35,046 nt of DNA from Candidatus Accumulibacter phosphatis. GTDB lineage: Bacteria; Pseudomonadota; Gammaproteobacteria; Burkholderiales; Rhodocyclaceae. Location: assembly GCF_012939955.1 (NCBI RefSeq), contig NZ_SPMY01000050.1, forward strand, positions 37 through 35,082. Direction: 5' to 3'. This document shows, one piece after another, positions 1,402-35,046 of the stretch (within the stretch, counting starts at the first letter, position 1; the number at the start of each line of letters is the position of its first letter). A model generated the notes under the pieces. That model ran no database searches. It was not told the origin of the DNA and worked only from the letters and a program-made list of their open reading frames with translations. The position numbers were made by a program, and so were the translations under genes.

Positions 1402-1437
1402 ATGGATACCGAGATCGCACTACGGTCGTACTGCTGA
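1402..1437 (+). CDS. 11-residue leader ORF translationally coupled to the giant gene
   Basis: ATG 1402 opens an 11-codon ORF (MDTEIALRSYC) ending in TGA at 1435-1437. It has the best ribosome binding site of the area: GGAGGAG at 1388-1394, seven bases from the ATG. Its stop overlaps the proposed start of the giant gene in the sequence TGATG, the classic arrangement for translational coupling. The ATG at 1437 has no good ribosome binding site of its own. Alternatives: the strong site and ATG 1402 are the true start of the giant gene and a base is missing from the assembly in this short interval, or translation really starts at in-frame ATG 1356, which has a weaker AGGGA four bases upstream. 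Confidence 0.4.
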   Translation: MDTEIALRSYC

Positions 1438-1643
1438 TGGATAGCAAAGCGCGCCCGGAGATTTTGCCGTCGCCGACCGGCGGGTCGGCAGCGAGGAAAG
1501 CACAGCGCAGTCATCGTGGTCGTGGTTTGGCGTGGCTGAGCGGGTTTCTGGCCAAGGCCTTCAGGCCAGCGGCCGGCGAGCTGCCGACAAGCGCCGGGCG
1601 CCTGAACTTCGAGGCGCTCGAACCGCGCATCCTGCTCGACGGC
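1437..1643 (+). other. N-terminal basic tail and LEPR-XLL motif
   Basis: Residues 1-69. A basic stretch (RKAQRSHRGRG) precedes a short hydrophobic patch (LAWLSGFLAKAF) and then NFEALEPRILLDG. LEPRILL fits the LEPR-XLL signature known at the N-termini of very large repeat proteins in Gram-negative bacteria, thought to be a targeting or processing signal. The hydrophobic patch is too short for an ordinary Sec signal. The motif sits just before the first repeat, as expected for this class. Confidence 0.85.
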
Positions 1644-4600
1644 GCGCCGAGCATACCGGTCACCCAGATCGATGGCTCGATCGACGTCGCCGGCGAGACC
1701 GATCGCTACGGTTTCACGCTGAACGAAACGGTTCGCGTGGTGTTCGATTCGCTGACCAACGATGCCAGCATGCACTGGTCGCTCGAAGGACCGCGCGGCA
1801 CGGTGGTCAGCGAGCGTGGCTTCAACGCTTCGGATTCCTACGAGCGGAGCGGCGATGTCGCCCTCGATCTGGGGGCGGGCGACTACACCTTGAGCGTCGA
1901 TGGTGTCGCCGACAACATCGGCGCCTACAGTTTCCGCTTGATCGATATCGCGCAGGCGCAGGAGTTGACACCGGGAACGACGGTCGACGCACAGCTCGAT
2001 CCAGGCAACAAGACCAACGCCTACCGCTTCAGTGTCGCGGCTGGTCAGCGCTTCTTCATTGACCGCTTTGCGAATACCGGCGACATCTATTGGCGGCTGC
2101 TCGATCCCTACGGTCGCACGGTCGTCGATCGTACGCACATGAGCAATGATCTCGGCGAGTTGACGCTCGCCGTGGACGGTAGTTACACGCTGTTGATCGA
2201 GGGCCGTGCCGCCAGCACAGCTCCCGCCAGCTACAGCTTTAACGTCGCCTTGCTCGACGAAACCGTGCCGCAAGCGATGGCCGTGGGTTCGCTGGTCACC
2301 GGTCGTATCGCGCAGGCTGGGCAGCGCGACATCCACAGCTTCACGCTGGCTGCGGATACCCGTGTCGTCTTCGACTCGCTGACATCCGACTACCAACTGC
2401 TGTGGTCGCTCACCGGCCCCAACGGCACGCTGCTTGCCGACCGCCGATTCCAGTATTCGGACTCCTCCGAGCTGGCCGGCAATACCAGCATCCTGCTGCG
2501 CGCCGGTAGCTACACGCTGAGCGTCGATGGTGACCGCGACCGCGTTGGGGACTACGCGTTTCGCGTGCTTGACCTGGCGGCAGCCTCGGCGATCGCGGTG
2601 AACACGACGGTGACCGGGAGCTTGAGCGACGCCGGTGCCGGCGGCGGCACGGCGAGCAATGCACCGGCCACGGAGACGCGGCTGTACAAGTTCACTGCGC
2701 TTGCCGGCGAGCGCTTCTTCTTCGACAGCCAGGGGCTGTCCGGCGACAACTTCTCGCTGCGCATCTTCGATCCCAAGGGCGGCCTGGTCTCCGGGCCGCA
2801 GTTCTCCACGGGTGACGTCGAGGTGTTCACTGCGCTCTACGATGGCGATTACGTGCTGGCGCTGGAAGGTCACATCTACAACACCCGTTCCAGCGACTAC
2901 CAGTTCAAACTGCAGCGGGTCGTCGATGGCAGCGCGCCGCTGACGCTGGATTCTCGCGTCGACGGCACTCTCGACCATCCCGGTCAGCGACAGGCCTACA
3001 CTTTCACGCTGGCGGCGCCGGCGCAGTTGCTCTTCGACTCGCTGACTTACGACAACGATTTCAACTGGAGCCTGGTCGGGCCACGCGGCAGCGAGGTCGC
3101 CGGGCGCAGCTTCGTGTACTCGGACGCCGCCGAATTCGGCGGCAATCCGCTGCTGAGCCTGGCCGCCGGGGCCTATACCCTGACCGTCGACGGCAATCTC
3201 GATAGCCTTGGTGCCTACGCTTTCCGTCTGCTGAACGTGGCCACTGCGAGCAGTGTCGTCGCTTACGACAGCGACGTCAGCGGCACGCTCAGCCCGGGCG
3301 GCATGACTCGGGTCTACCAGTTCACCGCCAGCGCAGGCGACCAGGTGCTGTTCGACCGTATCGCGCTCAGCGCCGGCAGCCCGTACTGGCGGCTGCTCGA
3401 CGAGACCGGCTTGCAGCTCTTCGGGCCGGAGCCTTTCGCCGACCGGGAGAGTGCCAGCCTGCGCCTTGGCGGCACCTACACCCTGCTGGTCGAAGGCCGC
3501 AGCTGGGAAAGCAGCGCTATCGATTACAGCTTCAAGATTGCCCTCGAGGGCAATACCCCGGTCGCCGCGCTGACCGGAACGGCCATCACGCTGGGTGCCG
3601 CGGTCAGCGGCACGCTGAGCGCCGCGGGCGAGGTGGACGACTACGTCTTTGCCGTCGCCGGTCCGACGCGACTCTACTTCGACAGCTTGGCGCCCAGCAG
3701 CAGTGGCGAGTTTCACTGGTCGCTGCGCGGTCCGCGCGGTACCGAGATCGCCGATCGCAGCACCTATTACTCGGACTCCTACGAGTTCGGCAACGGCAAC
3801 CCGGTGATCGACGTGCCGCTGGCCGGAAGCTATCAGCTACGCGTCTGGGGCAATGGCAACACCACCGGCAACTACAGCTTCCGCGTCCTGAACCTCGCCG
3901 ACGGCGTGGCGGTGACACCCGGCACGCCGCTCACCGCGAGCCTCGACCCAAGCAACGAAACCGACGTTTACCGCTTCACCGTCAACGCCGGCGACCGGCT
4001 GTTCTTCGACCGCCAGACGTTCAGCCCGGCCAACTCGGGCTGGGTCAGCTGGCGCTTGCTCGACCCCTACGGCCGCCAGGTCTGGGGACCGGCGAATTTT
4101 TACGACGACGTCGACGTCAGCACGCTGGCATTTACCGGTGTTTATACGCTGCTCATCGAGGGGCGGATCTGGAGCACGGGATCGTCGGTTGCCCGCTTCG
4201 ACTACAGCTTCAACATCCAGCCGGTCGCCGATGATCCGGTGAGTGCGCTGGCCATCGGCGAAGCCGTCAACGGCAACATCGACCACGCCGGACAGCAGGA
4301 CAGCTACAGCTTCTCGCTAAGCGACGAAACCCTGGTCTATTTCGACAGCCTGAGCAACAGCAACATCGCCTGGACCTTGCGGGGCCCGGACGGCTACCTC
4401 CTGAGTCGCCATCTGCAGAACTCGGATTCCTACGAACTGGGCCAGACCAACCCGCTGCTGCGGCTGGCGGCCGGCGCTTACACGCTGACTCTCGACGGCA
4501 GTGGCGATACCACTGGAAATTATAGCTTCCGGCTTGTGGACGTGGTCAGTGAAGCCGCCGCGTTGATCCCCGGCACGGCGCTCAACGACAGTCTGAGCAG

Positions 4601-7600
4601 CGCACGCGTCACCGATTTCTATCAGTTCGACGCCCTTGCCGGCGAGCGTTACTACTTCGACCGCATCAGCTATGACAACTACTACAACACCACCTACCGC
4701 CTGATCGATCCGCAAGGCAGGCAGGTCTGGGGCGGTTACGTCTGGCCGGAAGACCAGGAGATGAGCGCCTTCACCCTGTCGGGCACCTATTACCTGCTGG
4801 TTGAAGGCCGGGTCGGAAACACGGCGGCGGCCAACGCCTACGGCTTCAACATCCACAAGGTCGTCGATATCAGCGACAGCCTTACCTTGGGTCAGGCGGT
4901 GAGCGGCAGCTTCGGCACACCCGGCCAGCGCGCCAGCTATCGTTTCACGCTCAGCGACGCGCGGCAATTGCTCTTCGACGGCCTGACGCCGAACAGCACC
5001 AATCCTGATATCTACTGGACGCTGACCGGGCCACGCGGCACCGAGATCAGCAATCGCCGTTTCTACGGCTCCGAATCGCACGAGTTGGGCGCCACCAGTC
5101 CACTGCTCGATCTCGTCGCCGGTGACTACACCCTGACCCTCGACCCGCAGGGTGATCAGACCGGCGATTTCAGCTTCCGGCTCCTCGACCTTGCCGCGGC
5201 GACCGCGTTTACCAGCAACAGCGTCGTCAGTGGTCAGCTCGACCCGGCCAACGAAACCGACGTTTACCGCTTCGACGCCACGGCCGGTACGCGCTACTAC
5301 CTCGATCGCCAGAACCTGAGCAGCAGTGCCGACCGCCTGACCTGGCGCCTGTTCGATCCCTACGGTCGGCAGGTCTTCGGCCCCACCTACCTGAACGACG
5401 TCGACATTTTCACGCTCGCTGAAAGCGGCACCTACACGCTGATCATCGAGGGCCGTATCTGGCAGACGCAATACAGCGCCAAGATCGACTACAGCTTCAA
5501 GCTGCTGGAGATCACCGACGACATTGTCGACATCGTCCCCGGCGTCAGCCACGGCCTCGACCAGTTCAGTACCGATGGTCAGCTCGGTGGCGCCCTGAAT
5601 GTCAACGGCCTGCGCTACGCACAGGTGGCCAGTAATGGCGACATTGATCTGACCGGCTCGCTGACACTTGAAGCCTGGATCAAGGTCGACGCCTACGCCA
5701 GCACCTGGCAGCCGCTCTTCTACAAGGGCAACGGCAACAGCAACCAGCGGACCTACACCCTGTGGCTCAATTCCGCGGGTTACCTGCACCTGTCGACCGG
5801 CAACGATTCCAACAACAACATCAACACCGCCGCCGGCAGCGTGGTCACCGGTCAGTGGCACCACGTCGCCGTGGTGCTTGATCGCGACAGTGCAAGCGGG
5901 GTGATGAAAATCTACCTGGACGGCGTCGAGGCCGCCAGCGGCGCTCTCGCCAAAGACGCGGCAAGTTCCAATACCAATCCGCTGCTGATCGGCAGCAGCC
6001 TGGAAAATTACCCGATGTTCCAGGGTGCGGTCGACGAGGTCCGTTTGTGGAACAGCGTGCGCAGCGCGCAGCAGATCGCCGATAACAAGGACCAGGCGCT
6101 GGTCGGCGATGAGGCCGGCCTGCTGATGTACCTGAAGGCCGACGAGACCAGCGGCGGGACGCTGGCCGACGCCAGCGGCCGGGGCAATGCGGGACAGATG
6201 GTTCATCCCTGGTCGAGCGTGCCCGGCGTCGTCGCCGGACGCATCGATTTCGGTCAGCAGGACTACTACCGATTCACGCTTGCCGATACGACGCGTCTGT
6301 ATTTTGATTCGCTGACCGACCACAACAATCTGCGCTGGTACCTGAGCGGCCCGCGTGGCACGGTGGTTTCCGATCGTCCCTTCCAGAGCAGCGATTCGCA
6401 GAACGGACTGAGCGTCTTCGACCTGGTGGCCGGCGACTACACCTTGCGTATCGACGGCGTCGGCGACGCTACCGGCGACTATGGCTTCCGTCTGCTCGAC
6501 CTTGCCGGCGCCCTGGAGCTGGACTTCGATACCGTGGTCAACGGTCAGCATACGCCGGCCACGGCCACCACCGCCTACCGTTTCACCGCCGAGGCGGGCG
6601 AGCGCCTGTACTTCGACGAGGTCTCGGCCAGCGGCGGCTATCCTTACTGGCGCCTGCTGGACCCCTGGGGTCGCAACCTGTGGGGACCCAACTACCTGCC
6701 CTCGGACGACGTGCGCTTGCAGACCCTGCCGTTTGCCGGCGTCTACACACTGCTCGTCGAGGGCCGCCGGGATGGTGGCAGTGGTAGCAGCAACTTCAGT
6801 TTCCGGGTGCAGCGGGTCCGGGACCTGACCCAGGCCATCACGCTGGACGGCGTGTACGGCATGCCAGCGCCCTGGGCCAATGGCCACTTTGGCGGCGCGC
6901 TGCACTTCAACGGCGTGCAGTCGGCCCAGATCGACCATGCTGCGGCTCTCGACCTGACCGACACCCTGACCCTGGAGACCTGGGTCAAGGTGGACCGTTT
7001 CGACAATACCTGGACCACGCTCTTCTACAAGGGCAACCCGGAGAACCCTGGCGAGCGCAGCTATAGCCTCTGGCTACACTCCAACGGTAGCGTCGCTTTC
7101 GATACCGGTGACGGCAGCAACCAGTCCACCCAGACCGGCAGCGGCCTGATCACCACCGGGCAGTGGCATCACATCGCGGCGGTCATGGATCGCACTGCCG
7201 GAACGGTACGCATCCTGGTGGATGGCGTGTTGCAGAAGAGCGGCACCAATATCCGCAAGAATCCGGCCAGCAGCAACAGCAAGCCCCTGTACCTGGGTAG
7301 CGCGCTGGAGCCTGGCAGCAGCTACGCCAGCCTGGTGGGCAGCATGGACGACATCCGGGTCTGGAACGTGGCGCGTAGCGACGCCGAGATCCTGGCCTCG
7401 ATGAATGCCCCGCTGGTCGGCAACGCGGCCGGGCTGGTGGCTTACATCAAGGCTGACGAGGGCGTCGGCAACAGCGCTGCCGATGCTACTGGCCACGGTC
7501 ATGTCGTCCGCCTGAGCGAAGCCACTGCCCCGGTCATCGTGGGCGCCATCGAACATGTCGGTCAGCTGGTCAACTACACCTTCACCCTCAGCGAAGCCAG

Positions 7601-10600
7601 CACGCGCGTCTACTTCGACGCCATGACCGATAGCTCCAATGTGCGCTGGAGCCTCACCGGTCCCCGCGGTACCCTGGTCAGCGGCCGTCACTTTCAGCAG
7701 AGCGATTCCGTCGACGCTCTGTCCTTGTTCGATTTGCCGGCCGGCGACTACCAGCTCAGCATCGCCGGCTATCAGGACTACACCGGCGAATTCCGTTTTC
7801 GCCTGCTCGATCTGGCCGCTGCCAGCATCCTCGCCCCCGGCACTCCGGTCAGCGGCCGCCTGACCCCGGCCAACCAGACCGATGCCTATCAGTTCACCGC
7901 CAATGCCGGTGAGCGCTATTTCTTCGAGCGCATCAGCGAGGTGGCCGGCGATATCTATTGGCGCCTGCTCGACCCCTGGGGCCGGACCGTTTGGGGCGCC
8001 AGTAACTTCAATGCCGACGCCGGCCTGTTTACGCTGGCCTACGACGGCATTTATACCTTGCTGATGGAAGGCCGGCGCAGTGTCGCCGGAAATGCCTCCT
8101 ACTCCTTCAATGTCCAGCCGGTGGCTGATGATGTGGTCAATCTGACCCTGGGCGCCGCGGTCGGCGGCAGTATCGAGCACGCTGCCCAGCAGGACTACTA
8201 CGACTTCCGCCTGGAGGCCGGTAGTGCGCTGTATTTCGATTCCCTCACCAACAGCACCGACTTCACCTGGACGCTCAGTGGTCCGCGCGGCCCGGTGGTG
8301 TCGGCCCGGCAGTTCGCCGACAGCGACTCCAACGATTACAAAAGCAACCCGGTGCTCAGCCTGGAGGCCGGCGATTACACCCTGATCGTAGGCGGCAAGG
8401 ATGCCACGACCGGCGCTTACGGCTTCCGACTGGTGGATCTGGCTGCGGCCACGCTCATCGACGTCGGCGATACGGTCACCGACACCCTGAACCCCGGCAA
8501 CGCGACGCATCTGTTCCGCTTCGCTGCCAGCGCCCGCGACCGTTTTAATTTCGAGTTGCTCAGCGAGAGCGCAAACAGCCCGTACTGGCGGCTCATCAGT
8601 CCCGATTACGGGGTGCTATTTGGCCCCAGCGCCACTGATGACGTGGTGTCAACCATGCCCTTCACCGGCACCTACTACCTGCTGCTCGAAGGGCGGGTCA
8701 GCGAGAGCAAGGCCGTCGACTACAGTTTCCGGATAGCCGACACCGCCTTGCCGAATAGCGGCGGTCACAGCAGTCAGGATTTCGACGCCGACGGCCTGCC
8801 GTGGGTAGCCGCCAGCTTCAGCAACTCGGCGCCGGTGGTGATCCCCGGTGGGCCGTCGGGCAACTTCCTGCGCCTGCTGCCGGGCAGCGTTACCGGCTAC
8901 AACACGATTGCCTTCAACAATGCCGGTGTTGGTGTGATTCCGGCGACGGTGAGCGTCGATTTCGACTTCCGCATCGGCAAAGTCAGCAATCAGGGTGACG
9001 GCATTGGCTTCGCCTGGTTGAATGCGGACGTCTGGGGCATCAGTGGCCCGGCACCACAGTTTGGCGAAGAGGTTAACCTGGCCGGCAGCTTCGGCGTCGG
9101 CTTCGACCCGGTGAACAACGGCGAACTCAGCGACAACCACGTCTCACTGCATTTCAACGGTAGCAAGCTCGCCGAGTTCAACCTCCCTGGCTTCCGCCTC
9201 GACAGCGGTGATTTTCAGCACGCGCGCGTCATCATTGCCGCGGTCACCGGCGGCAGCAAGGTTTCCGTCTACCTGACACCCAATGCCGGCAGCGAAGTGG
9301 CGGTCGTCGAGGACTATTTCATCAGTGGTATGCAGGCCTACGACGGGCGCATGGCTTTCGGTGCGCGCAACGGCGGTTGGCGCGCCGACAACGACCTCGA
9401 CAATATCCGCGTCGCCGTCGTCGCCGGTACGGCCGAGACCCTGCCGGTCCTGACCCTGGGTACCGTGGCGGTGAGCGGCACGCTGTCCGCCAGCGGCGAG
9501 ATAGACCGCTACCGCTTCAGCGTCACCGACGCTACGCGCACCTATTTCGACTCACTGACCAACAACAGCAGCCTGCGCTGGAGTCTGAGCGGGCCGCACG
9601 GCAGCGTCGTTGCCGACCGCAGCTTCACCGCTTCGGATGGCTACCAGGGCCTGTCCCTGCTGGACCTGACAGCGGGTGACTACCTGTTGTCCGTTTTCGG
9701 TAGCACCGGCGCCTACAGCTTCAAGCTGATGGACATGGATCAGGGCGAAGTGCTGACTCCGGATACCCCTACCAGCGGTACGCTCAGCCCGGGCAACGAG
9801 ACCGACATCTACCGTTTTGATGCCCTTGCCGGCGAGCAATTCTACTTCGACCGCGTCAGCTTCAGCGGCGGCTACTACATCGATTGGCGCTTGATCGATC
9901 CCTTCGGCCGCCCGCTGTGGGGGCCGACGCACATGTACACCAACGACGTCGACCTGACGACGCTGCCGTACTCGGGGACCTACTACCTGCTGCTCGAGGG
10001 CCGCTATCACGAGGATACGGCGTCGAGCTACACGATCAACGTGCGCAAGATCGACAACAGCGTCAGCACGCCGATCGTCGTCGGCGACCGCGTCGATGCC
10101 GAACTGAGCAAGCCGGGCGAGGTCGACAGCTTCAGCTTCGAAATCGCCGGCAGCGAGTCGAAACGCGTCTACTTCGATGTTCTTACCAACACCAGCCAAC
10201 TCAGCTGGACCTTGAGCGGGCCGCGCGGCAGCCTTGTCTCCGGGCGCTTGTTCAGCGCCACCGACGCCGCCAACGGGCGCTCGATCATGGATCTGGCGCC
10301 GGGCAGTTACACGCTGATCGTCGACGGCAGTGGCGATGCCACCGGCGCTTACGCTTTCCGCCTGCTCGACCTGGCGGCCGGGACGCAGATCGTCCCCGGA
10401 ACGCCGCTGCTCGACCGGACGCTGACGCCCGGCAACGAGACCGACGTCTACTGGTTTGACGCCGTCGCCGGCGAGCGTTTCTACTTCGATCGCGTCAGCT
10501 TCAGCGGCGGTTATTACACCGACTGGCAGTTGCTCGACCCGGCGGGGAACACGCTGTGGGGCTCCACCCACATGTACTACAGCGACGTGGACGTCACGAC

Positions 10601-13600
10601 GCTGCCGCGCAGCGGTCGCTACACCTTGCTGGTCGAAGGTCGCTACCACGAAGACGCGGCCACTTCGACTTACACCATCAACGTCCAGCCGGTGGTCGAC
10701 CATGTCACGCCGATGACGCTCGACAGCGAGGTCGCCGGCTCGATCGACAGCGTCGGCCAGCGCGGCCTGCATACCTTCACGCTCAGCGAGACCAAGCAGG
10801 TCTACGTCGACGTTCTGACCAACAACGGCAATTTCTCGTGGAGCCTCAGCGGTCCGCGCGGCAGCGAGGTGGCGAACCACTCCTTCAGCAGCACCGACGG
10901 CGTGCATGGGCTGTCGCTGCTCGAACTGCTGCCGGGCGATTACACGCTGAGCATCGACGGTAGCGGCGAGGCAACCGGCGCTTACGCCTTGCGCCTCCTC
11001 GACCTCGCCGCTGCGCCGCTGATCACCCCGGGTACGCCGGTCAGCAGCCAGCTCAATCCGGCCAATTCGACCGATATCTTCCGCTTCAACGCTGCCGCCG
11101 GCGATCGTTTCTACTTCGACCGGGTCAGCTTCAGCGGCGCCTACTACACCGAATGGCGCTTGCTCGATCCCTGGGGCAAGACGGTGTGGGGGCCGACGCA
11201 TTTCTACACCAATGACGTCGACGTAACGACACTGGAATTCGACGGCCTGTACACGCTGCTCGTCGAGGGGCGCTACCATGAGAGCGGCATCTCGAACTAC
11301 ACGCTCAACGTCTCGCCGTCGCCGCTTGCGCAAAAAATCATCCTCACCGGGCTCGGCAGCGTTCCGGGTGCCGACCTCAAGGTCGAGAATCTGGTGTTGA
11401 CGCCGGTCGGCGGCGGCCTCACCGCCGGCGGCCAGGTGCTGGTCAGCTGGGAAGTGAGCAATACCGGCAATTTACCAGCCGATGCGCCGTGGAAAGATCG
11501 CATCCTGGTGCGCAACATGGACCGTGGCGGCGAGTTGGTCGTCAACCTGCTGGTCGACTACAGCGACCTCGGTGGCGCAGCGACCGATCCGCTGGCCGTC
11601 GGCGCGCGTCGCGCCCGGCAGGTGACGGTGAGCTTGCCGCCCGGCAACAGCGGTGCCGGCAACCTGCGTTTCGAAGTCGCCGCCGACGTCACCAACGTCG
11701 TCGCCGAACCCGGCGTCGCCGAGCTGAACAATGCTGCCAGCGTGAACGCGCTTGCCGCGTCGACCCCGTATCCCGACCTGCAGGTCGATAGCGTCGTCGT
11801 GACGCCGAGCAGCGGCTGGGCGGCGGGTAGCAGCGTGACCGTCAGCTGGCGGGTTAATAACGGCGGCAGTGTTGGCGTCGACGACGCCTGGAACGATCGC
11901 CTCAGGGTGCGCAATCTGAGCACCGGCGCGATCCTGCTCAACGCCAGCAGCCGCTACCTGCCGGCGGTCGGTGGCGCGCTCGCCGCCGGCGGCTCGATCG
12001 ACCGCCGCTTCACCTTTAACTGGCCGGCCGGCGCCGTCGGCAGCGGCCAGTTCGAATTCCTGGTGAGCACCGACGACGATGGCGAGATTTTCGAGAGCAA
12101 CGCCAGCGACAGCGCGGAGACCAACAACGCGGCGACTGTGGTCGTCGCCTCGGCGCCTGATCTGCTCGTCCAGAGGCTGCGCGTCGACGCGTTCACGGCC
12201 ACTGCCGGCGACAGCGTCACCGTCTTCTGGGACGATCGCAACGACGGCCTGATCGCCACCCCGGCGAGTTGGCACGACCGCCTGATCGTGCGCAACCTGA
12301 GCAGCGGCGAAACGCTGCTCGACGTCGCTCTGCCCTACAACATCGCGCTGATCGGCAACGCCGCGCTGGCGCCCGATGCCAGCGTCGCGCGTTCGTACAC
12401 CTTCCAGTTGCCGGAGGGCCTGCGCGGCAGTGGCCAGATCGAAGTCGAGGTGCGTGCCGACCAGAACGCCGCCGGCCAGGGGAGCCTGGTCGAATATACC
12501 GCCGCCGGCGACGGCGGCGAGAGCAACAACAGCGCCCGCCTGGCGTTCACCGCGGCGGCCAGACCCTACGCCGACCTCGCGGTCGGCAGCTTGAGCGCAC
12601 CGAGCAGCGGCCGCGGCGGCGAGACGATCACGCTCGAGTGGACGGTGCTCAACCAGGGATCGATTGCCAGCGGCCCGCAGTGGAGCGACCTCGTCGTGCT
12701 CAGCAGGGACGACGTGATCGGCAACGCCGACGACGTGACCCTGGCCAGCGTCGGGCACTACGGCGTGCTGGCGCCCGGTGCCTCCTATCAGCAGAGCCGG
12801 CAGCTGCTCCTTCCCGAGCGCCTGGATGGCGCTTTCCGCGTGGCGGTCGTCGCCGACGCGTTTGGCGAGCTCAGCGAGCCCGACACGCGCGCCAACAACA
12901 GCGCGCTGGTGACGATCGACCTGTCGACGCCGCACGCCGACCTGCAGGTCGAGGTCGTCGCCGCGCCGGCCAGCGCGCGCAGCGGTGAAGCGACGCCCGT
13001 CAGCTGGCGGGTGCGCAATGCCGGCGACCGGCCGACCGACGTGACGCAATGGCAGGACCGCATCTACCTGTCAAGCGACGCCGCGCTCGACGCTGGCGAT
13101 ACGCTGCTGGCGCAGATCCTGCACAGCGGTGGGCTCGGCGCTGGTGAAAGCTACAGCGGCCAGAGCAATGTCTTCCTGCCCTTCGGGATCACTGGCGACT
13201 ACCGCATTCTGGTTAGGACCGACGCTGCCAGCCAGGTTTTCGAGAGCATTTTCGAGGACAACAACGTCACTGCCAGCCATGCGGCAGTGCAGGTGCTGGC
13301 GCCGACACTGGCCGATCTGAGCGTCAGCGAGATCGTCGTGCCGGTGCCGGGTGCTCCGGGGCAGACGCGGATCGTTGCGTGGACCGTCGCCAATAGCGGC
13401 AGCGGCGCCGCGCGTGGCAGCTGGAGCGACCGCGTGTACCTCAGCGCCGACGGCAGTCTCGGCAGCGCGCGTCTGCTGGCGACCGTGCCGCACAGCAGCG
13501 AACTGTTGGCGCTGGCCAGCTACACGGCGAGCACCGAGATCACGCTGCCCGACGTCGCCGACGGCGATTATTTCATTGTCGTCAGCAGCGACGTCGGCGA

Positions 13601-22600: not shown

Positions 22601-25600
22601 CGAAGTCGCCGGCGCCAATCGTCCGCCGGTGGTTTCCGAACTGCCGGGCGAGATCGAGGGCCAGGAAGGCCAGTCGCTGCTGGTCGGTCTGTCGGCGCAG
22701 GACCCCGACGAAGACTTCCTGCAGTATTTTGCCAACAATCTGCCGCCGGGAGCCGTTTTCGATCCCGAACTCAAGGCCTTGCTGTGGACGCCCGATTACC
22801 AGTCCGCCGGCACCTATCACAACGTCGAGCTGGTGGTCAGCGACGGCAAGACCTCGGTGACCCGCTCGTTCACGCTGCTGATCAAGCCCGACAACGCGCC
22901 GCCCGAAGTCAAGCCGCTGGCCGAGCGGACGATCCGCGAAGGCGATTCGCTGCGCCTGCAGCTGCAGGCTTCCGACGTGGACGGGCAGCAGCTGGTCTTC
23001 TTCGCCAACATCCTGCCGGTCGGTGCGTTTCTCGATCCGCATACCGGCGTCTTCGAATGGACATCCGGCTTCACGCAGGCCGGCGATTATCTGCTCAAGC
23101 TCGGCGCCAGCGACGGCGCCAAAGCGACCGAAACCGAGTTGCGCGTGCATGTCCTGAACGTCAACGCCGCACCGCGTTTCGACGAACTCGGGTCGTGGAT
23201 CAGCTTCGAGGGACAGGTGCTGAGCTTCCGCGCCTTCGCTTTCGATGCCGACAATCCCGGTTTCATCCCGCAGGATCGCCAGAGTAGCGGCACGCTCACC
23301 CTGCAGGAAGGTTCCGAGGCAACGGTGACTTACGTCGTCAGCGGTCTGCCCGCTGGGGCGCGCTTCGATGCGGTGACGGCGATGTTCAGCTGGACGCCCG
23401 ACTTCAGCCAGGCCGGCGACTACAACGTGCGCTTCACCGCCACCGACGACGGTGACGGCGGCGTGCCGCTGACTTCCGAGATTGTCGTGCCGATCAGCAT
23501 CCGCAATGCCAACCGCACGCCGGAAATCGCCGCGATCCTGCCGCAGAGCGTGCAACGCGACAGCGTCTTCGAACTGCCGGTGAGTGCCAGCGACGACGAT
23601 GGCAATCTGCTGCAGCTCACCGTCAGTGGCTTGCCGGCCTTTGCGAGTTTTGTCGACCACGGCGACGGCAGCGGCAAATTCGTTTTCGCGCCGCACTCCG
23701 GCGACCGCGGCGACTACGAGATCGCGCTCACCGCGACCGATGACGGCGACGGCGGCGGCGCGCTGCTGGCGCAGTCGTTTACGCGGCGCTTCATCCTCAG
23801 CGCGCTGTCCGCCTCCGAATCGCCGCTGCTGGCACCGCTCGGCGACAAGCTGGCGCTGGTCGGCCAGCGCCTGAGTTTCACCATCGACGCCCGCGATCTC
23901 GATCAGGATGCGCTCGCTTTTGCCATGCTCAACGCACCGGCCGGAATGACCCTCACGCCGCAGCCGACCTACGGCCGGGCGCTGGTCGAATGGACGCCGA
24001 CCGCGGCCAGCCTCGGTCAGAGCTTCGACGTGCGTTTCGAAGTCAGCGACAACGGCAACCAGGGCGCGACGGCACCGAACAAAGTCTCGCAGGTGGTGCG
24101 CATCAAGGTCCGCAACGCCAACAGCGCGCCGGTGCTGGCGCCGGTCGGCGACCTGACGCTGCTCGAGGGTCAGGCTTTCCGCCTGCAGCTGGCAGCCATC
24201 GACGCCGATGGCGATGTGCTCAGCTACGCGGTCAGCAATCTGCCGGCAGGTGCCAGTTTCGATACTGTCAGTGGCGTCCTCAACTGGACGCCGCATCTCT
24301 TCAGCGCCGGCGACTACCCGGATGTGCGCTTCTCGGTCAGCGACGGCAGCGCCGAGAGCTCTGAGAGCGTGCGTCTCACGGTTCAGAACAGCAATCAGGC
24401 GCCGATCGTCGTTGCCCTGCTGCCGCAGAGCGGCCGCGAGGGTGCCCAGCTGCAGTTCCAGCTGAGTGTTGGCGATGTCGACGGCGACCCGGTGGTGTTC
24501 AGCGCCTTGACGCCGTTGCCCGCGGGTTCGCGCTTCGACGCGCGCACAGGTGAGTTCCGCTGGACGCCGAGTTACGAGCAGGCGGGTGACTACAGCTTCA
24601 GCTTCTCGGCGCGTGACCCGCAGGGCGCGAGCAGCGAGACCACGGTCAGCGTGGCAATTGCCAACGTCAACCGGGCACCGCAGTTGAGCGTCTCCAATCA
24701 CGCGGCGCTGCTCGGTCGGCCACTTGCCTTCCAGATCGTCGCACAGGACGCCGATCAGAACTCCCAGCTCAGCTACAGCGCGAGCGGTCTGCCCGACGGA
24801 GCGACGCTCGATGCGGCGACCGGCTTGCTGCAATGGACACCCGGCGCCGGCCAGGCGGGCGACTACCTGATCATGGCGCAGGTCTCGGATGGTCTCGCCA
24901 GCACGACGCTGCCACTGCTGATCCGGGCCGCGCTGACAGCGCCGACAGCGAACGTGATCATCGAGAACACACCGAGCTTCCCGGTCATACCAGGCCAGCA
25001 GGTGTTGGTGCACGTGATCGCCGAGAGCTTTGGCGCGATCGCCCATCTGCGCCTCTACGCCGATGGCGTCGAAGTGTCGCTAGACCAGGATGGACGAGCG
25101 CTGCTGAGCACCGCCACGGTCGGCAAGATCGCCCTGCGCGCCGAGGCCACCGATGTAGACGGTTTCGTCGGCAGCAGCACGTCGGTCATCCGCGTCCGCG
25201 ATCCGCTCGACAAGAGCGCGCCGACGCCGTCCTTCACCAGTCAGCTGGCATTTGCCCGGATCACTGCGACGACGGCACTGATCGGCAGCACCGGCGACGA
25301 CAACGTCGACTCGTGGACCCTGGAAATCGCCCGTTACGGAGAGGAACACTACTCCTTGCTGGCCAGCGGCGACGGCGCGGTCGATGTCGCTGCTTTCGCA
25401 CAGCTCGACCCGAGTGGCCTGGCCAATGGCTTTTATTCGCTGCGCCTGCGGGTCGTCGACCTGGCCGGCCGACGCGGCGAAGCGAGCATCGCGATCGAGG
25501 TCGATGTGGCGAGCAAGCAGCCGCAGCTGCTGCGCTCGGAGACCGACTTTGTGCTGACCGTCGGCGGCCACGACCTGGCCTTCGCACGCCGCTACGATTC

Positions 25601-28600
25601 GCTGGCGCGCTCGATTCCGGGCAGCTTCGGCGAGGGCTGGCGGCTGGCCTTCCGGGACGTCGATCTGCAAACCGACGTGTCGCTGACCGGTCGCGAGACG
25701 GCTGGCGTGCTCGGCACTTTTGCCGATGGTCAGCGGGTCTTCCTGACGCTGCCAGATGGCCAGCGCGTGGCTTTCAGCTTCGCCCCGCAGAAACACTCGA
25801 TTCCGGGTCAGACCTGGTACCTGCCGGCCTTCGCTGACAATGGCAGCGGCTGGTCGCTGGAGGCGCCAGCGACGCTGCTGCAGCGCGCCGGATCCAGCTA
25901 TTTCGACCTGCTTACCGGGAAGGGCTACAACCCGGCCAACGCCACAGGTACCGACTACGTTCTGGTCGCTCCCGACGGCACGCGCTACCACATCGGTGAT
26001 GGCGAAGTGCGCGAGATTGTTTTCACCGATGGCGTTCGCCTGCTGCTCAGCGACAGCGGCATTGTCGCCAGCAACGGCCAGCGCGTGCAGTTTTCGCTCA
26101 ACGGCGATGGTTTCATCGAACGCGTCGTCGCCGACGACGGCCGCCAGTTCCTCTACGAGTACGACGCGCAGGGTCGCCTGCGTGCCGTTCGCGATCTCGA
26201 AGTAGCGCGTTCGCTCCGCTACGGCTACGAGGAGGGCGCCCTTGGACGCCTGGCGATGGTCGCTACTGCCGGAGGTGGCAGCCTGTTCGATTACCGCGGC
26301 ACGGGCGTCGCAGAGCAGGCGATCACCGCCGACCTGGGTTCGTCGCTGGGCTATCTGGCGACGCCGGTTGCCGGCCATCTCGCCGCCGGCGAGAAAGCCA
26401 GCTTCGCGTTCACCCTGCGCGAGTCCGAACTGGCGTCGACGGCCAGCGGCTCGGTATACCTGGGGCTGATCGTCGAGGGCAGCGGCGGGCTGTTACCGCT
26501 GCTGCCGGTGCTGCCGGGACTGACAGCGGTGGCCTCGTCAGTGCAGGGCAACCGCGCTTTCGCGCTCTACAAACTTGATCGCGCCGGCCTGAAGCTGATC
26601 GAGGTTGGCGGTGGCAGCGCCGCCAGTGCCGGCAGCTACCAGCTGTCGCTGTTCGTTGCCGGCGACGCCAACCGCGATGGCAAGGTCGACGGCAGCGATG
26701 CCGTGCTGATCGCTGCTGCCGCCGGGCTGCGCAGCGGCGACGCTGGCTACGCGCTGGCGCTCGACGCCGACACCAATGGCGTGATCGACAGTCTCGACCT
26801 GCAGCTGCTGATGCAAAACACCGGCTTTACCCCGAACCAGGCGCCGGTGGTGGTCGCGTCGACGGTTACCACGCACGAGGATCTGGATGTCAGCGCACCG
26901 GTAGCGAGCTTTGTCACCGATCCGGAAGGCGACCGCAGCTTCTTCTCCATCGTCGGCGCAAGTCATGGCACCGCGCGCCTGTCGGGCGACGGCCGGGCGG
27001 TGATCTTTGCGCCCGAAATGGGCTTCGTCGGCAGCGCCGACTTCACTATCCGCGCCGACGACGGCTTCGGCCACACCCTCCAGACCATCGCCGTGACGAT
27101 CAGCAACGCGGCGCTGACGCGTATCGACTTCGTCGAGCGCGTCTTGCGACTGGACGTCGGCGAAGGGCGGCAGATCAGCCTGATCGGTGATTTCGCCGAC
27201 CAGAGCGGCGTCGAATTGCCGGTTTCGTACGTCAGCCTGAGCAGTAGCAACGTTGGCAGTGGCACGATCGCCAGCGGCGGGCGGATCAGCGCCGTCGGCA
27301 AGGGCTCCGGCGTGCTCGTCGCCGAACGTGGCGAACTGCGCGCGGCGACATCGTTCACCGTCGGTACGCCGACCGAGACGGTTGCCGCCTACGTTTTCGC
27401 GATGGGCCTCGACGTCTATCCGGGGGCCGTCGCGCTGACCGAGAACGGTGGCCGTCGCCAGATCGTCGCCAGCCTTGCCGGCCAGATCGACCTGGCGCCG
27501 GCGAGCAGCGGCACGCGCTACTTCGTCAGCGATGATCGTGTCCTGAGTGTGTCGGCCGACGGCCTGATCACCGGCAAGGCGGCGGGAAGTGCCACGGTTA
27601 CCGTGATCAACGGCGGCGGCGAGGTCGTTCTGTCAGCGATGGTTGAGGCGCCGATCAGCGGGCCGGCGGTGCTCGGCAGCCGCGGTGGCATCGTCGAAGG
27701 CGCCGACGGGTCGCTCGTGGCGGTGGCGGCGGCGGCCTTGACCGACAATACGCCGGTCTCGATCGCCGCCCTCACGGCGGCGGAACTGCCGCTGGCGATG
27801 CCCGAGGAGATGCTCATGGCCGGCGCCTTCCGGCTCGACATCGGCGACGGCAAGCTGGCGACGCCGGTACAGCTGGCGATTCCGACCACTGGTCTGGCGG
27901 CCGGCACGACGGTGGTCTTCATGCGCTACGCGGAAATACCGACCCCCGAGGGGACGCTGCTGCCGGTCTGGCTGCAGGAGGAGACCGGCATCGTCGGCGA
28001 GGACGGCATGGCGCGTACGTCGTCGCCGCCTTATGCCGGGGTCGCGATCTCGGGCGTCTATATTGCCGGTGTCGCCGGGGAAGCCGAGTTCGGGCAGGTG
28101 CGCGGGCGGACCTACGCCACTTTCCCGTCGGGGATCAACGACGGCGGCTCGTCGTTCGCGATGCTTTCGTCACTCGGCGGCGGCTCCGCCATCGGCGCGG
28201 CTTTTTCGCTGACCTCGGGTTTCATCATGACCGCGCTTTTTGGCGCACGTGAACTGCAGATCATTTCGGTGCCGGCGCAGGGTCTGCCGCAACGGACGAC
28301 GCTCGGCGTCGAAATAGCCGCCGGCAAGGTCAGCGACTACGTCATCCAGGTGGTCAATCCCTACACCCCGAGCACGTCGCCGGCCAGCGAGCCCTTCATC
28401 TCGGAAGCGCGGCTGCTCTTTCGGGCGGCAGGCGCTGACCTCTTGGCGCCCTTCGTCGAGATCCAGGGCGATCGCTTCATTTACGACAACCCGTCGGCGC
28501 CCGCCTCGGCCAAGGACGGCAGCGTCATCGCCGACCTGTTCGTCATCTTCGAGACGCCCGACGGTCGTCGCTACGAGGTCCATCCCGATGCCTCGAGTAC

Positions 28601-31600
28601 ACCGGAGCAGGTCTTTGTACAGGTGCCGCAGTCGGTGGCCATCGGTACCGCCAAGGTCTTTGTCAGGCGGCCGCAATATCTGAGCAACGATGGTGCCTGG
28701 GATCTGTTGGTCGGCAAGGAGAGCAACCGCGTGCAGCTGTCCTACGACGCGCGTTACATCTTCGGCGGCCTCAGCGGCAACCAGTTGCTGGTGATCGACA
28801 GCCAGAGCAAGTATCTGGCCGCGCGCATCCCGATCGGCGGCGACTACCCGGCGCCGCGCTCGGTGGCGATCAGCCCCGACAACACGCGCGCCTACGCGAC
28901 GCTGCGTTACGAAAGCGCGGTCGCCGTCATCGATACAGTCGCCTTGCAGCAGCTCGACGCCGATGGCAATCTGGCCAACGGCGTCAGCAATATCGAGCTG
29001 CTGCCGGGTGCCAGGCCGTTCTGGATCGCGGTCAGCAAGAATGGCAACAAGGCCTACGTTTCGGACGAGGTCGCCGGGCGAATCTACGTGCTCGACATCG
29101 ATCCGTCATCGGGCAGCTACAACAAGCTGGTGCGCACCATCGATGTGGGGCCGGCACCGTCCGGTCTGCGCGGCATGGCGATCAACGCCAACGGCACGCG
29201 CTTGTTCGTCGCCGCGCCGGAAAAGATGCTCTTTGGTAGCGGCAGCGGCGATGGCCGGGTCTTCGTGATCGACGTGGCCGAAGGCAGCGAGACTTACGGT
29301 GAGATCGTGGAAGTCCTGCTGGCGGGCGGCGAACCCTACGGCGTGTCGGCGACCAACGACGCCAACGTGATGCTGTACACCAACCGCCTGTCGGATTCCA
29401 AGGGCGTGGTGATCGTCAAGGGTGACGTCGGCAGCTACACGCAGACCGCCGTCGGCATGCATCTGGGTTCGTTCACCGATTACTTCGACGTCAACAATGC
29501 GATCTCCGTGGTGCTCTCGAAGGACGGCGAGTACGCCTTCGTCTCGGGCTTCAACGTCTTCATTCAGGACAATCCGTCGCACGACCCGAACTACGATCCC
29601 TTCCATCCGGCGGGCGGCAACGTCGGCATCATCCGCGACCCGCTGGGTGAGGCACCGACTCTGGTCGCGGCCACCCGCCCGGTGCCGATGTCCTGGCCTG
29701 ACAATCTGGTCCTCTCGCCGGACGGCGACACTCTCTACGCCGCTTACCGCGGCCAGCGGGTGGTGATGGGCTTCGACGTGCAGGCGATGATTACCGCGGT
29801 CAATAACCCGGACTTTGCCGGGCAACTCGAGCGCAAGCCGATCGACGACCTCGCGCCGTCGATCAACGTCCGCTCGAACTTCAAGATCATCAAGCCCGGC
29901 AGCTTCCACTCGGACCCGGTCTTCGGCGTGCCACCGGGCGAGGAGTTCACCGGCCCGATCGGTGTCGGCGGGCAGGCCAACGGCCTGGTCGCGCAGGGCG
30001 GCGCGTCGCTCGAACTGCTGGCGCCCGGCAAACTGAGCAGCGAGTTGCTACCGACGTTCTCATGGCTGGTAAAGGGCTTCGAGAATGCCAAGAGCCGGCT
30101 CTACGTGAGCACCTACCGGGGCAGTGAAGGCCTTTTCCCGAGCGACCTCGGGAAGCCGGATCTGAACGCCGACCGGATCTTCTCGTCCGCGCTGCTCGAT
30201 GCGAACAGCATCGACGCGGACGGATCGCTGATCTTCATCAAGGCGCTGACCGAGAAACTCAAGCTCACCGCCGGCCAGCAGTATTTCTGGGGCGTCGAGG
30301 TGGTGTCGCCGTCGGGCACGGTGATCGCCCGCGACTGGCGCGTGTTCAAGACCGAAGCCTACCGCGATGCTTCGCAGCCGTTCAGCAGCGTGACGCTTCT
30401 GACGCATGGCTTCCAGCTTTCGCCGACGGCGCCGGCCAACGTCGCCGACAGCATTGCCGCATTCATCGAAATGGCCGAGAACATCGCCCGTGCCGGCGGT
30501 GAGGGCGTCGCCGCGCTGTACCAGAAGACGACCGGCCGCTGGCTGGTCTTCTATAACGGCGCCACTTTCGAAACCAGCGTCGATCTGGAATCGGTGCTCG
30601 CCTCGCCGGCGATGGCCGGCAAGCCGGTGGTGTTGGTCAGCGACTGGTTCAACGAGTCGGATTTTCCGACCAACGGCTTCAGCGAGGCGGCCGCCGACGC
30701 GCTCTATTCGGCGCTGGCCAGGCTCAACTTCAACCTCGGCGACAACAAGCTGTTCGACTCGCCGATCCACCTGATCGGTCACAGCCGTGGCACGGTGGTG
30801 AACAGTGAAATCGCCCAGCGTTTTGGCATTTACGCCAAGGCCGTGCGGCTGACGATGACCTCGCTGGACGTCCATGATTTCAATCAGCCGTCCCTCGACA
30901 TTCCCGTTGGCGAGTACATCGACTTGTTTGGCAGTAGCCTCAGCGCGCTGGGTCTGGGCGCGCTTGGCACGCTGACGCAGTTATGGGGGATGTTGCCGAC
31001 CAACGAGATCATTCCGACCGGCAACTTCCTCGATCCGGACGTCCAGCGCTGGAGCAACATTGATTTCGCCGAGCACTATTACCAGACTCTGGCCAGTCCG
31101 ACGGCTCTGCCGCTCGGTGGCGGCATCGTGTCCACACCGAATGGCCGCTTTGTGCCGAATTTCGATGTCAGCATCAACCTCAACGGCCGCGCCGGTTTCA
31201 CCGTCGACGACGGGCTGGCGACGCTGACCGCCCTTAGCGATGGCTCGCTCAGGCCGGGCGGTCCGCACAGCCGCGTCTGGCGCTGGTACGGCGCGACCAC
31301 GGATCTGTCGGCGGTGAACTTCGACAAGGCCGGCGAGCCGGTCTACCGTCGCCTGGCCGACAAGGAAGCGATCGAGTTTCAGGGCGTTAGCATCCCCTGG
31401 TACAACGCGCAGTCGTTTGCCCTTGGCGTCGGTCCGTCGGAGGGTATCGGCACCGGCTGGGCGTTCTCGCCGCAGGGTGGCGTGCCGTACGCCGGCACGC
31501 CGAGCACGATTCGCATCCCGGTGAGCTTCGACAACAGCGAGACGATCAATCCGTCGGGCCTGCCGGTACCCTCGGTGTTCAACGGCGACTTCGAGGAAGG

Positions 31601-34600
31601 CGCGCTTAACCGCAGCTGGCTGCTCGAATACTCGGCGGGCGGTCTGGCGACGAACCTCACCGGCGATCTGCCGGGCTGGTCCTTCCATGGTGGTAACTTC
31701 GCGGCACTCTACGCTCCCGGCGACCGACTGGTTACGCTGACCGAGGGCCAGCACGCAGCGATGCTCGACAACGACAATTCGTGGATCCAGCACAATCGGA
31801 TGGTCGTCCCGGATTGGGCGGAGTACCTGAGTTTCGACGTCCAGGTAGTCGACGCAGGCGATGGCGAGACGCTGCGGGTGTCTGGCTACCTGCCCGACTC
31901 GGACAGCTGGATCTTCCTTGGTGCGGTCGCGGTCGACAGTGAGGGGAGCGGTTTCGTCAACCGCTTGCTGGAAGTCCCGGTCGAGTTCCGGGGCGCCGAA
32001 CGGATGTTGAAGTTCTCGCTCAGCGCTGGCGGCTCGGCGGACGCCGAGATCCTGCTCGACCATGTCCAGTTCTCGCACGGGCTGATTACCGACAGCACGA
32101 CCGACGAAAGCGACCGGGGCGTCTTCTTTTCCGATACGGCGGGCGGCTTCGATAGTCAGTGGGTCGAATTGACCAATGGCTTCACGGAATCGTTCACGGT
32201 CACCGTGACCACCGACCCGAACGACTTCCTGGTGTTCGTCGACGGCGCCTTCGAAAAGGCGCTAAACGACAACCTGGCCCACGCGCCGCTTTATGAAAAC
32301 CTGCTGCTCAATCCCGGTGACAGCCTGCACCTCGACCTGAAAGCGAGGTTCAGCGACGATTTCGTCAAGACCTACGCCGATGCCGACCTGCCGATCGAGA
32401 AGACCGCCTTGTACTTCACGATTACGCTGAGCAACGGCAGCGTCCGCGACGAGGTGGTCGACCTCTTCTACCTGCCGGACTTCGCCGACGGCGACGCGGG
32501 CGACGGCGTGTGGACGATGATGGACACGCTCGACGGCAAGACGCGAACGCTGGCTTTCGACAATGCCGCGCAGGTAGAGGTCAAGCCGCTGTTGAATCCG
32601 AGCGGACAGTTCTCGGTCGAGATCAGCGGCGACATCGCGCAGGGAATCAAGTACCAGGCGGTGAATCCCAGTGCGATCGACGACTTTGCCGATTATCAGG
32701 TCGAGGAGGGTGGCCGCAATCTGGGCCAGATCAGGGTCTCGGCGCGCGCGGTCGAGAAGCAGACCGTCGGCGTTTCGCTGTCGACCCTGCGCACCATGGT
32801 GCAGGCGATTCGTACCGAATACGAGCAGTGGCTCGCCGACCCGACGACGCCGGTGCACGACGCGAACGGTTTCGCCACCGGCAACTACGGCACTTTCGTC
32901 AGCCTGTTCTCGCCGCTGATCACCGACGCCGAATGGGCCGAGGTGCTGACCGGTTTCCACAATGTCTTCGGCAAGGATCCGGCTGCCCTGGGGCCGGTGT
33001 ACCCGGCGTCGATCTACCTGCCCAGTATCGAGCGGAGCGAGTTCGCCTACGGCGAAATCGGTCTCAATCCGATCGTGATGATCAACCGGCCGTGGCTCGA
33101 CGTCGCCGACAACGAGTCGCGCAGCTTCGCCGGGATCGACTTTGCCTACAGCAGCTTCGAGAGCAATCTCACCGAAGCCGGCGGCGGGGCCGGAAGCTTC
33201 GGCGGCAAGCTCCTGCGCGACGACATTTCGATTCCTGCCAAGCGCTTCCTGCTCTCGCAGGTGGTCAATCCGCTGCGTAGCGGTGCGATGGCTGGCGGTA
33301 AGCCGATGACTTTGGTCGTCGATGGCATCCTGCGTGCCTATTTGAACGTCGGCGACACGCGCCAGGATGTCGGCGAGTCTTTCGGCTGGGTGGTCGGCCA
33401 CGAACTGGCGCACAACCTCGGCCTGTTCGACGAGTACATCTACAGCCCCTTCCAGTCGGTGCCGCGCAATGGCGGCGACAACTTCATGTCCACCGCCAAC
33501 ACCATCACCGTCGCCGATCGCCAACGCGAAGCGCTGCACCTGGCGATGGACAATCCCGAGACGACGGTGTCGCTGGCCGGCACCAACGCCCTGGCGACCT
33601 GGTATCTGGACCTCGACGCGCTCGATGCCTCGAACCGCCCCACCCGCATTGCTCTGGCCTTGGCTCCCGGTGCCGGTGACGGCGACCCCGAAGCCGATCC
33701 ACTCACCGCCTTGCTGGCTTTCGTCGGCATGCAGGGCGCGGCAACAGCCGACGTGATTTCGCAATCGCTGCTGCTCAACGGTGAGGTCCATGCCGGTATC
33801 GTCAATGGCGCTTTCGACGTCGCCGACGTGACGGCGACCGATTACGGCTGGATGGCTGTCGGTCAGGCTGGCGTCGCCAACGGCCAGGGCGTTCTCGGCG
33901 AGGACCCGCGGCTGGCGTCGCGGCTGGTACAGACCTTCACCGTTCCTGAGCAGGCGCAGTTGCTGCGTTTCGAACTGCTCGGCGCCGATTTTGTCGCCAA
34001 TGACGGCGGTCCGTCCGACGCCTTCGAGGTGGCGCTGCTCGATATGGCCGGCAACGCCGTCGCCGGAAGCATCCCGGTGGCCAACAGCGACGCGCTGTTC
34101 AACCTGCAGGCCGGCGGCAAGGTGTTTGCCGCGGCGTCGGTCAGCGCCAGCGGCCTTAGCGACCGCAACGGCGGCACGCTAGCGGTTGATCAGCCGGTGA
34201 CCGTCAGCATCGACCTCAGCGGTATCGCCGCCGGCACCGTGCTGACGCTCTACTTCGACCTGCTCGGTTTTTCCGGCGCGGCGAGTCGGCTGCGGATCGA
34301 CAACGTCAACATCGTGAGCGCCGCTGACAGCGGCAATCTGCCGCCGGTCGCCAGCAGCCGCGCGATTGCCGCCAGCGAAGAGGGCGCGGCGGTGGCGCTC
34401 GGTCTGAGCGCGCCGACCGACGTCGATAGTCCGCTGCTGTCGATCCTGGTCAGCACTCTGCCGACGATTGGCGAGGTGCAGTACGCGGACGGCAGCACGG
34501 TCGGCGTCGGGGACTCGCTGAGCAGCGCCCAGCTGCTCGGCTTGAAGTATCTGCCACCGGCCGAATACAAGGCCAGCGATGCCGTCGGCCGCTTCTCCTA

Positions 34601-35046: not shown

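Follow-up and report, generated by a model that had tools for sequence, protein, structure and literature searches.

Some bacterial proteins exceed 10,000 residues, which raises the question of how chains of this size are recognized and transported across two membranes. The locus studied here poses that question for Candidatus Accumulibacter, which forms granules used in phosphorus removal. The window (the whole stretch of DNA analyzed, 35,046 nucleotides from a Candidatus Accumulibacter assembly) ends where its contig ends, at contig position 35082, and a plus-strand frame that is open throughout from 1254 to 35045 (11,264 codons, no stops) runs off that end unfinished. Is this frame a single gene, what would its product do, and how could it leave the cell? 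We find that the giant is a further member of the known LEPR-XLL class and carries two enzyme-like domains that make an unusual pair. What was not expected is the association of the LEPR-XLL tag with a cassette encoding a PqqD-M50-HlyD hybrid protein, which we read as a candidate for an undescribed export and maturation system and which bears on the question of how such long chains are handled.

The giant frame and its domains

The ATG at 1437 was taken as the start codon because conservation between species sets in at that point, with MDSKxRP present in all five orthologues. At the other end, the last 111 nucleotides of the window are an inverted copy of a nearby segment (Table 1), also seen as a minus-strand self match, and their reading is no longer repeat-like. 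We regard this segment as a fold-back produced during assembly at a repeat, which makes roughly the last 37 codons an artefact. The sequence-only reading had proposed one protein of more than 11,200 residues; the uninterrupted, unfinished frame stands, and its length is reduced to 11,166 reliable codons once the artefact is removed.

The complete gene is present in four Accumulibacter metagenome-assembled genomes (MAGs), namely ACC003 (12,258 aa), HK-STAS-PROT-102 (11,965 aa), HK-STAS-PROT-103 (12,177 aa) and Ca. Accumulibacter appositus (12,054 aa), with lengths counted from the first start codon past the preceding stop. These loci are the four confirmed among 68 pattern-matching stretches. 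In a sample of 61 genomes (60 relatives plus the own genome) the C-terminal enzyme region was matched in six: the own genome, the four MAGs, and G012, where it is a fragment. Identity between the window and the four orthologues is 81-86%, with dN/dS of 0.19-0.22 over the shared length and below 0.7 in each block tested. The frame is therefore genuine and under purifying selection, and four complete orthologues with dN/dS near 0.2 exclude a chance frame. A neutral or decaying repeat array, its frames kept open by high G+C and yielding no single giant product, would be in line with the long antisense ORFs of this G+C-rich window, but the same dN/dS values and the similar length in four further species make it very improbable. 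Frameshifts or stops on resequencing had been named beforehand as an outcome that would count against a single protein; no stop occurs in any of the four.

One region departs from this conservation. The second LamG domain and the PPC block that follows it (residues 1870-2500, window 6861-8753) are only 40-54% identical to all four orthologues; the window copy may have diverged, a domain may have been exchanged, or the repeats may be misaligned. The reliable frame encodes an acidic protein (1,290 Asp+Glu against 690 Lys+Arg) with two Cys, and a hydropathy scan revealed no hydrophobic N-terminal segment. Tandem Repeats Finder listed one 30-base array in the window, which indicates that the protein repeats have diverged. 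A plasmid nucleotide search with window 1437-9000 returned one short match of 76%.

The proposal of a LEPR-XLL giant on a lectin/Ig-like scaffold held, as NF012209 scored over its cut-off and the scaffold domains were recovered by Pfam. Curated cut-offs were exceeded by LEPR-XLL, Laminin_G_3, PPC, CARDB, He_PIG, dockerin, Big_9, Big_2 and the lactonase-type propeller. From the domain list of the sequence-only reading, HMM search confirmed PPC, CARDB, He_PIG, dockerin and propeller, and it also recovered LamG; RHS and L-type lectin remained under cut-off. The 24 PPC-like units span residues 139-3353 by iterated self-profile (Pfam PPC 34.3 bits against 25.9). The He_PIG profile gave 12 matches: nine in an array at residues 7027-7880, a short piece at 5619 and two in the C-terminal repeats. 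The possible lectin stretch is 85-90% identical in the orthologues. The possible first propeller, for which no Pfam propeller family was reported, is 86-92% identical. Membership of the RHS/polymorphic toxin group was not supported, the DUF6531/RHS core not exceeding its cut-offs (Table 1). No RTX family was among the Pfam matches listed for the scanned window pieces.

Table 1. Features of the window. Positions are window coordinates.
Feature	Position	Strand	Basis
265-aa ORF with N-terminal hydrophobic segment and three more TM-like segments	215..1012	+	homologous to the small protein preceding the giant in relatives
Giant LEPR-XLL frame, reliable portion of 11,166 codons	1437..34935	+	open frame, orthologues, dN/dS
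LEPR-XLL tag (FEALEPRILLDGAP), proposed export/maturation leader	1602..1664	+	NF012209 24.2 bits (cut-off 17); 30.6 bits in genome scan
24 PPC-like domains, with two LamG domains and a possible L-type lectin in between	1668..11312	+	iterated self-profile; Pfam PPC
LamG/ConA-like domain 1	5526..5993	+	Pfam Laminin_G_3 (2 stretches); self-profile
LamG/ConA-like domain 2	6849..7298	+	Laminin_G_3; self-profile; block about 40% identical in orthologues
Possible L-type lectin domain	8751..9443	+	Lectin_L-type_dom E 0.062, far under cut-off
17 CARDB domains	11364..17972	+	Pfam CARDB E 7.9e-105, 11 stretches; 17 units by self-profile
Possible first propeller, about residues 6530-6810	20841..21683	+	by eye only
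9 He_PIG Ig-like domains	22332..24893	+	Pfam He_PIG E 2.7e-81; self-profile
DUF6531/RHS-like stretch, under cut-off	25530..26333	+	DUF6531 23.0 bits (cut-off 24.1); RHS_repeat 19.1 (22)
Dockerin type I domain	26658..26816	+	PF00404 27.2 bits (cut-off 22.9)
Lactonase/YVTN-type beta-propeller	28701..29933	+	PF10282 36.7 bits (cut-off 21.7); TIGR02276 30.1 (27.85)
Alpha/beta-hydrolase-like domain, GHSRG, Ser codon 30783-30785	30321..31283	+	motif; Abhydrolase_6 below cut-off
Zincin-like peptidase domain	32748..33560	+	HELAHNLGLFDEY (33399-33437), followed by NFMS as a candidate Met-turn (Met codon 33486-33488)
First part of the C-terminal tandem repeats, cadherin/Big_9-like	34326..34935	+	Pfam Big_9; self-profile
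Repeats 34589-34699 in inverted orientation; treated as an artefact of assembly rather than true coding sequence	34936..35046	.	99.1% over 111 nt

The two enzyme-like domains had been described as an apparently intact hydrolase and an apparently intact zinc peptidase. Their motif residues are indeed kept: both GHSRG and the residues of HExxHxxGxxDE (HELAHNLGLFDEY) with the Met of NFMS are invariant in 5/5 orthologues. The profiles, in contrast, stayed below cut-off (Abhydrolase_6 E 0.008, 17.3 bits against 26.3; Zincin_1 E 0.066, 13.6 bits against 22.4). With its HExxHxxGxxD motif and Met-turn, the peptidase-like domain is presumably metzincin-like. Structure prediction, which had been suggested as a check and was run for these two domains, did not bear out a fold: AlphaFold2 with five-row alignments reached pLDDT 38.9 for the hydrolase-like and 33.2 for the peptidase-like domain. 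No usable match came from sequence searches of the PDB with the two domains. When remote homologues of the peptidase domain were sought, the same orthologue group alone was recovered (5/61 genomes), and both regions are complete in only five Accumulibacter genomes among the 61. Adhesion combined with substrate processing may be the role of this protein, as its domain content suggests.

The C-terminus can be seen in the relatives. The complete orthologues end in further cadherin-like repeats and a module DFxPRPAGxRxP...WRKxFVTxMAKK...PN..LRV, followed in most of them by a short hydrophobic stretch and basic residues. In a comparison of 19 ORF ends, 11 belonged to the four MAGs and eight to other genomes, of which G015 is of the same genus. 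Related C-termini turned up in further giants of these MAGs (ACC003 81422, PROT-103 81230, PROT-102 30060), with a short part of the module shared by appositus 160; in this set the end of ACC003 62857, a gene with a broken frame, is not that of a true protein, and the same may hold for others. Another tail is common to G015 3691 and PROT-103 4230, and a third is shared weakly by G030, G355 and G381 (E 3e-7 to 0.006).

A cassette associated with LEPR-XLL genes

The cassette consists of a GAF-HlyD protein, the PqqD-M50-HlyD hybrid, an optional short accessory SecA and an HlyD protein. In ACC003, PROT-102 and appositus it lies upstream of the giant, within 10 kb and on the same strand, in the order GAF-HlyD (621-630 aa), PqqD-M50-HlyD (715 aa), SecA-like protein, HlyD301-like match and small membrane protein; in appositus two extra ORFs intervene. 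In PROT-103, GAF-HlyD and PqqD-M50-HlyD come just downstream of the giant and are followed by a second LEPR-XLL giant, beyond which lie SecA and HlyD. In the window's own genome a different contig, C53, carries the cassette, which lies outside the window and is unlinked to the giant in this assembly. The window does retain a counterpart of the small protein, the 265-aa ORF of Table 1, whose product is 60% identical over 232 aa to that of ACC003 and belongs to a type without any family over cut-off.

Second giants were also noted. Directly downstream of the ACC003 orthologue lies another LEPR-XLL giant, DUF4347-like near its N-terminus by eye, in two overlapping frames (G011:C3:62857-81804 and 81422-95161) that may be frameshifted or misassembled. 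The own genome also has a second one, with an open frame of 8,156 aa (G000:C35:50246, minus strand, L087) in which the tag LEPRILLDG is followed by a PPC-like reading.

Profile searches assigned HlyD_3/HlyD_D23 to the GAF-HlyD protein, with a weak GAF match, and PqqD and HlyD_3 to the hybrid, with a weak M50 match (Pfam 18 bits against a cut-off of 27.2). Residues 18-405 of the hybrid match NF041824, the daptide intramembrane metalloprotease (E 4.5e-44), at 151 bits against an equivalog cut-off of 300. Scores for the family are thus below cut-off in both Pfam and NF041824, and the hybrid carries the site-2 (M50) motif, HExxH with a downstream Asp. The corresponding H210, E211, H214 and D312, which by M50 convention we take to be the zinc ligands and catalytic residue, are invariant in 37/37 full-length hybrid homologues. 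No ABC transporter family was found among the scanned cassette proteins. Reading of the neighbouring genes, which did not include a channel scan, brought no outer-membrane channel gene to notice beside the Accumulibacter cassette. Two hybrid genes elsewhere have signalling-type neighbours, a GGDEF/EAL gene in G250 (L055:8020-11145) and an adenylate-cyclase/response-regulator gene in G237 (L070:11709-13919).

The SecA-like protein (685 aa) matches SecA_DEAD, SecA_PP_bind and P-loop_SecA, keeps the SecA motifs and has conserved ATPase motifs. Its residues 66-673 align to 16-608 of a 781-residue SecA2 of known structure. Because it ends 12 residues past the alignment, where SecA2 continues for about 160-170, its C-terminal part looks missing. 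Its gene was no more than 8 kb away from the hybrid at 18 of the 39 loci inspected, some of the others being cut by contig ends, and the protein is therefore unlikely to be a universal motor. Housekeeping SecA was rejected as the source of the match: all 61 genomes match SecA, and the short accessory form occurs in 22, exactly the hybrid carriers. An accessory SecA remnant with two TAG stops (65% identity; G010:C1:2223591-2224175, minus strand) was observed in an Accumulibacter genome that has no LEPR-XLL or M50-HlyD match, and looks like a case of joint loss.

LEPR-XLL was found in 23 of the 61 genomes (51 loci, of which 21 sit on open frames 8,000 aa or longer), the hybrid in 22 at 500 bits or more, and the short SecA in the same 22 at 450 bits or more. 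Both tag and cassette were present in 21 genomes, LEPR-XLL only in two (G012, in 820 contigs, and G019), the cassette only in one (G006) and neither in 37, giving p 4.4e-13, a value overstated by the relatedness of the genomes. The association between LEPR-XLL and hybrid held inside the genus (p 1.2e-4, n=28) and outside it (4/4 vs 0/29, p 2.4e-5). Wider samples agreed, with bit thresholds that differ by sample and were picked after the tables were seen. In the class sample (n=369) there were 29 LEPR-XLL genomes and 30 with the hybrid (at least 380 bits), 23 having both (p 4.1e-25), so that the hybrid occurred in 23/29 LEPR-XLL genomes vs 7/340 others. The phylum sample (n=398) had 41 and 37 (at least 320 bits), with 32 shared (p 8.2e-34), or 32/41 vs 5/357. 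The LEPR-positive sets of these two samples have three genomes in common.

LEPR-XLL genomes lacking a strong hybrid match numbered 2, 6 and 9 in the three samples. Some hybrid matches may be missed in the class and phylum samples because few candidates were scored per genome (at most three and two, respectively). At 100 bits a hybrid relative is present in 27/29 (class) and 40/41 (phylum) LEPR-XLL genomes, and also in 25 and 49 genomes without a LEPR-XLL match. Very long frames were recorded along the way, including one of 19,427 aa (about 58 kb, open and tagged) in a different member of the phylum (G477:C115:112865, minus strand) and LEPR-XLL frames of 15,434 aa (G438) and 14,920 aa (G432).

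Physical linkage was assessed in 39 hybrid loci from 38 genomes, hand-picked among LEPR-positive, LEPR-negative and weak-match genomes. A LEPR-like motif was present beside the hybrid in 23/39 loci. Within the first 200 residues it occurred in 24/174 same-strand non-cassette ORFs vs 0/274 opposite-strand ORFs, where many ORFs of both strands are not genes and the motif pattern was written after examples had been seen. Cassette-side tags in genomes lacking an NF012209 match include QERRILFSAD, VEPRLLFSAG, MEPRVLFSDG, LEPRLLLSGG and LETRLLYSAD (L063, L064, L066, L069, L073). Variant tags stand beside the cassette in profile-negative genomes (G318, G324, G419, G154) and in weak-match ones (G355, G051, G222), and the tag family therefore appears wider than NF012209. 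No tagged ORF was found in the fetched stretch of 16/39 loci. A giant frame was recorded with its tag outside the stretch in three of these (G167, G300, G284), four are cut by contig ends (G325, G006, G154a, G160), four have the tag on another contig (G237, G344, G363, G000), and five are without explanation (G068, G239, G339, G179, G254). Taken together, LEPR-XLL genes appear tightly, and often physically, associated with the cassette.

A FastTree tree of the hybrid has a deep branch formed by G051, G222, G284, G179, G339, G254 and G160. Tags there read LEPRxxFDGA where readable (G051, G222, G284), and most others end in SAD or similar. The split between tag and tree is not clean, as the window and the four orthologues read LEPRILLDGA or LEPRILLDAT and G379, a weak hybrid match, reads LEPRILLDGA. 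An outer-membrane efflux protein (PF02321) is encoded near the hybrid in G051, G284 and G222, and two separate HlyD proteins in G051 and G284. The diverged operons L074, L072 and L076 comprise genes for outer-membrane efflux, HlyD-type, M50-HlyD and LEPRxxFDGA-tagged proteins, with no SecA match seen in them, and possibly represent a second branch of the same system.

Proposed export model and alternatives

Our main reading, to which we assign a probability of roughly 0.55, is that the giant is an exported surface or biofilm-matrix LEPR-XLL protein of about 12,000 residues, provided with a leader and exported by the PqqD-M50-HlyD cassette. PqqD domains serve peptide maturation by binding leader peptides. 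Given this and the PqqD domain of the linked hybrid, we infer that the LEPR-XLL segment would act as a leader to which that RRE-like domain binds in the cytosol. The conserved M50 site suggests that the hybrid's zinc protease would then cut the leader. A path across the envelope is suggested by the HlyD parts and by the outer-membrane efflux protein of three diverged loci: the chain would cross the periplasm via the HlyD-type adaptors (HlyD, GAF-HlyD and the HlyD part of the hybrid) and exit through a TolC-type channel, with the short accessory SecA as a plausible motor in Accumulibacter. Outside the cell, the PPC/LamG/CARDB/He_PIG rod may bind matrix or cells and display the hydrolase-like and zincin-like domains, the surface location and any adhesion or enzyme activity being predictions from the domain content. 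The lack of a visible hydrophobic N-terminal segment, the two Cys and the acidic composition count in favour of this export model; the separate cassette contig of the own assembly, the LEPR-XLL genomes lacking a strong hybrid match, the hybrid relatives in genomes without a LEPR-XLL match, the M50 score under cut-off and the untagged loci, five of them unexplained, count against it, and association alone does not amount to export. The general form of the proposal is more tentative, and we place it at somewhat less than even odds: LEPR-XLL would be the leader of an undescribed envelope-spanning secretion system of Pseudomonadota that works without an ABC transporter. It would consist of PqqD-M50-HlyD, additional HlyD adaptors and a TolC-type channel, joined in one branch by a dedicated short SecA.

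Giants with Ig-like and cadherin-like repeats are often substrates of type I secretion. The protein could accordingly be an ordinary type I secreted adhesin of the LapA/SiiE kind, its ABC transporter encoded elsewhere and the cassette serving something else. A Vibrio LEPR-XLL giant reported to have C-terminal RTX domains (PMC10868602) points the same way, as does some ABC-exporter match to the LssB profile in all 61 genomes. These ABC matches are mostly weak, though, and TIGR03375, the LssB/LapB-type ATPase, exceeds its cut-off in 17/61 genomes. It does not track LEPR-XLL, being above cut-off in 6/23 LEPR-XLL genomes vs 11/38 others, and in 0/5 of those carrying the giant. The neighbouring type I secretion genes expected by the sequence-only reading were thus not borne out for this one ATPase type. 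Together with the strong and linked cassette association, and with cassette proteins free of ABC transporter families in our scan, this makes an ordinary type I route unlikely.

It is similarly unlikely, in our view, that the cassette acts after Sec export, processing or anchoring the giant, with M50 as a sortase-like site-2 protease that would release or retain the protein. Such a role would accommodate the invariant M50 residues, the cassette-linked SecA, which suggests Sec involvement, and the C-terminal modules common to different giants. However, several HlyD-type adaptors and the efflux protein of the diverged loci argue for a trans-envelope route, and a hydrophobic N-terminal segment for Sec was not seen in the hydropathy scan. 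Export of the giant by the cassette thus remains our preferred reading. The present data tie a short tag to one particular cassette that is often linked to it and keeps its protease site, which renders the export question testable. If the reading is true, the system would handle some of the longest bacterial proteins, considering LEPR-XLL frames of up to 19,427 aa. A matrix protein of 12,000 residues served by an exporter of its own would also be a candidate for the material that keeps the granules together.

Comparison with known systems

In a study of the secretome of granular Accumulibacter (PMC12019908), long, beta-rich proteins with negative charge are described as a cluster, most of whose members do not come from Accumulibacter; the main text of that paper does not mention CARDB or SecA. 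Glycoproteins are reported in Accumulibacter extracellular polymers (PMC11320575). We found no description of an export route or function of LEPR-XLL giants in the literature searched, and a search without preprints and most subscription papers found no paper on the cassette.

The Accumulibacter giant resembles other LEPR-XLL giants (NF012209) in its N-terminal segment over cut-off and its very long repeat body, but adds hydrolase-like and zincin-like regions. The proposed system would share HlyD-type adaptors with type I secretion, as well as an outer-membrane efflux protein at three diverged loci; it differs in having a zinc membrane protease and no ABC ATPase among the scanned cassette proteins. 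The arrangement of PqqD plus M50 is that of the daptide protease (NF041824) and other PqqD/M50 leader handlers, whereas the hybrid has a C-terminal HlyD part and is linked to giants rather than to small peptides. The accessory Sec system (SecA2/SecY2) for serine-rich repeat adhesins likewise places an accessory SecA near a giant adhesin-like gene, and a short SecA-like protein is present in the orthologous loci. Unlike SecA2, however, the short SecA seems to lack the C-terminal part, was seen in 18/39 loci only, and is combined with HlyD and M50 proteins.
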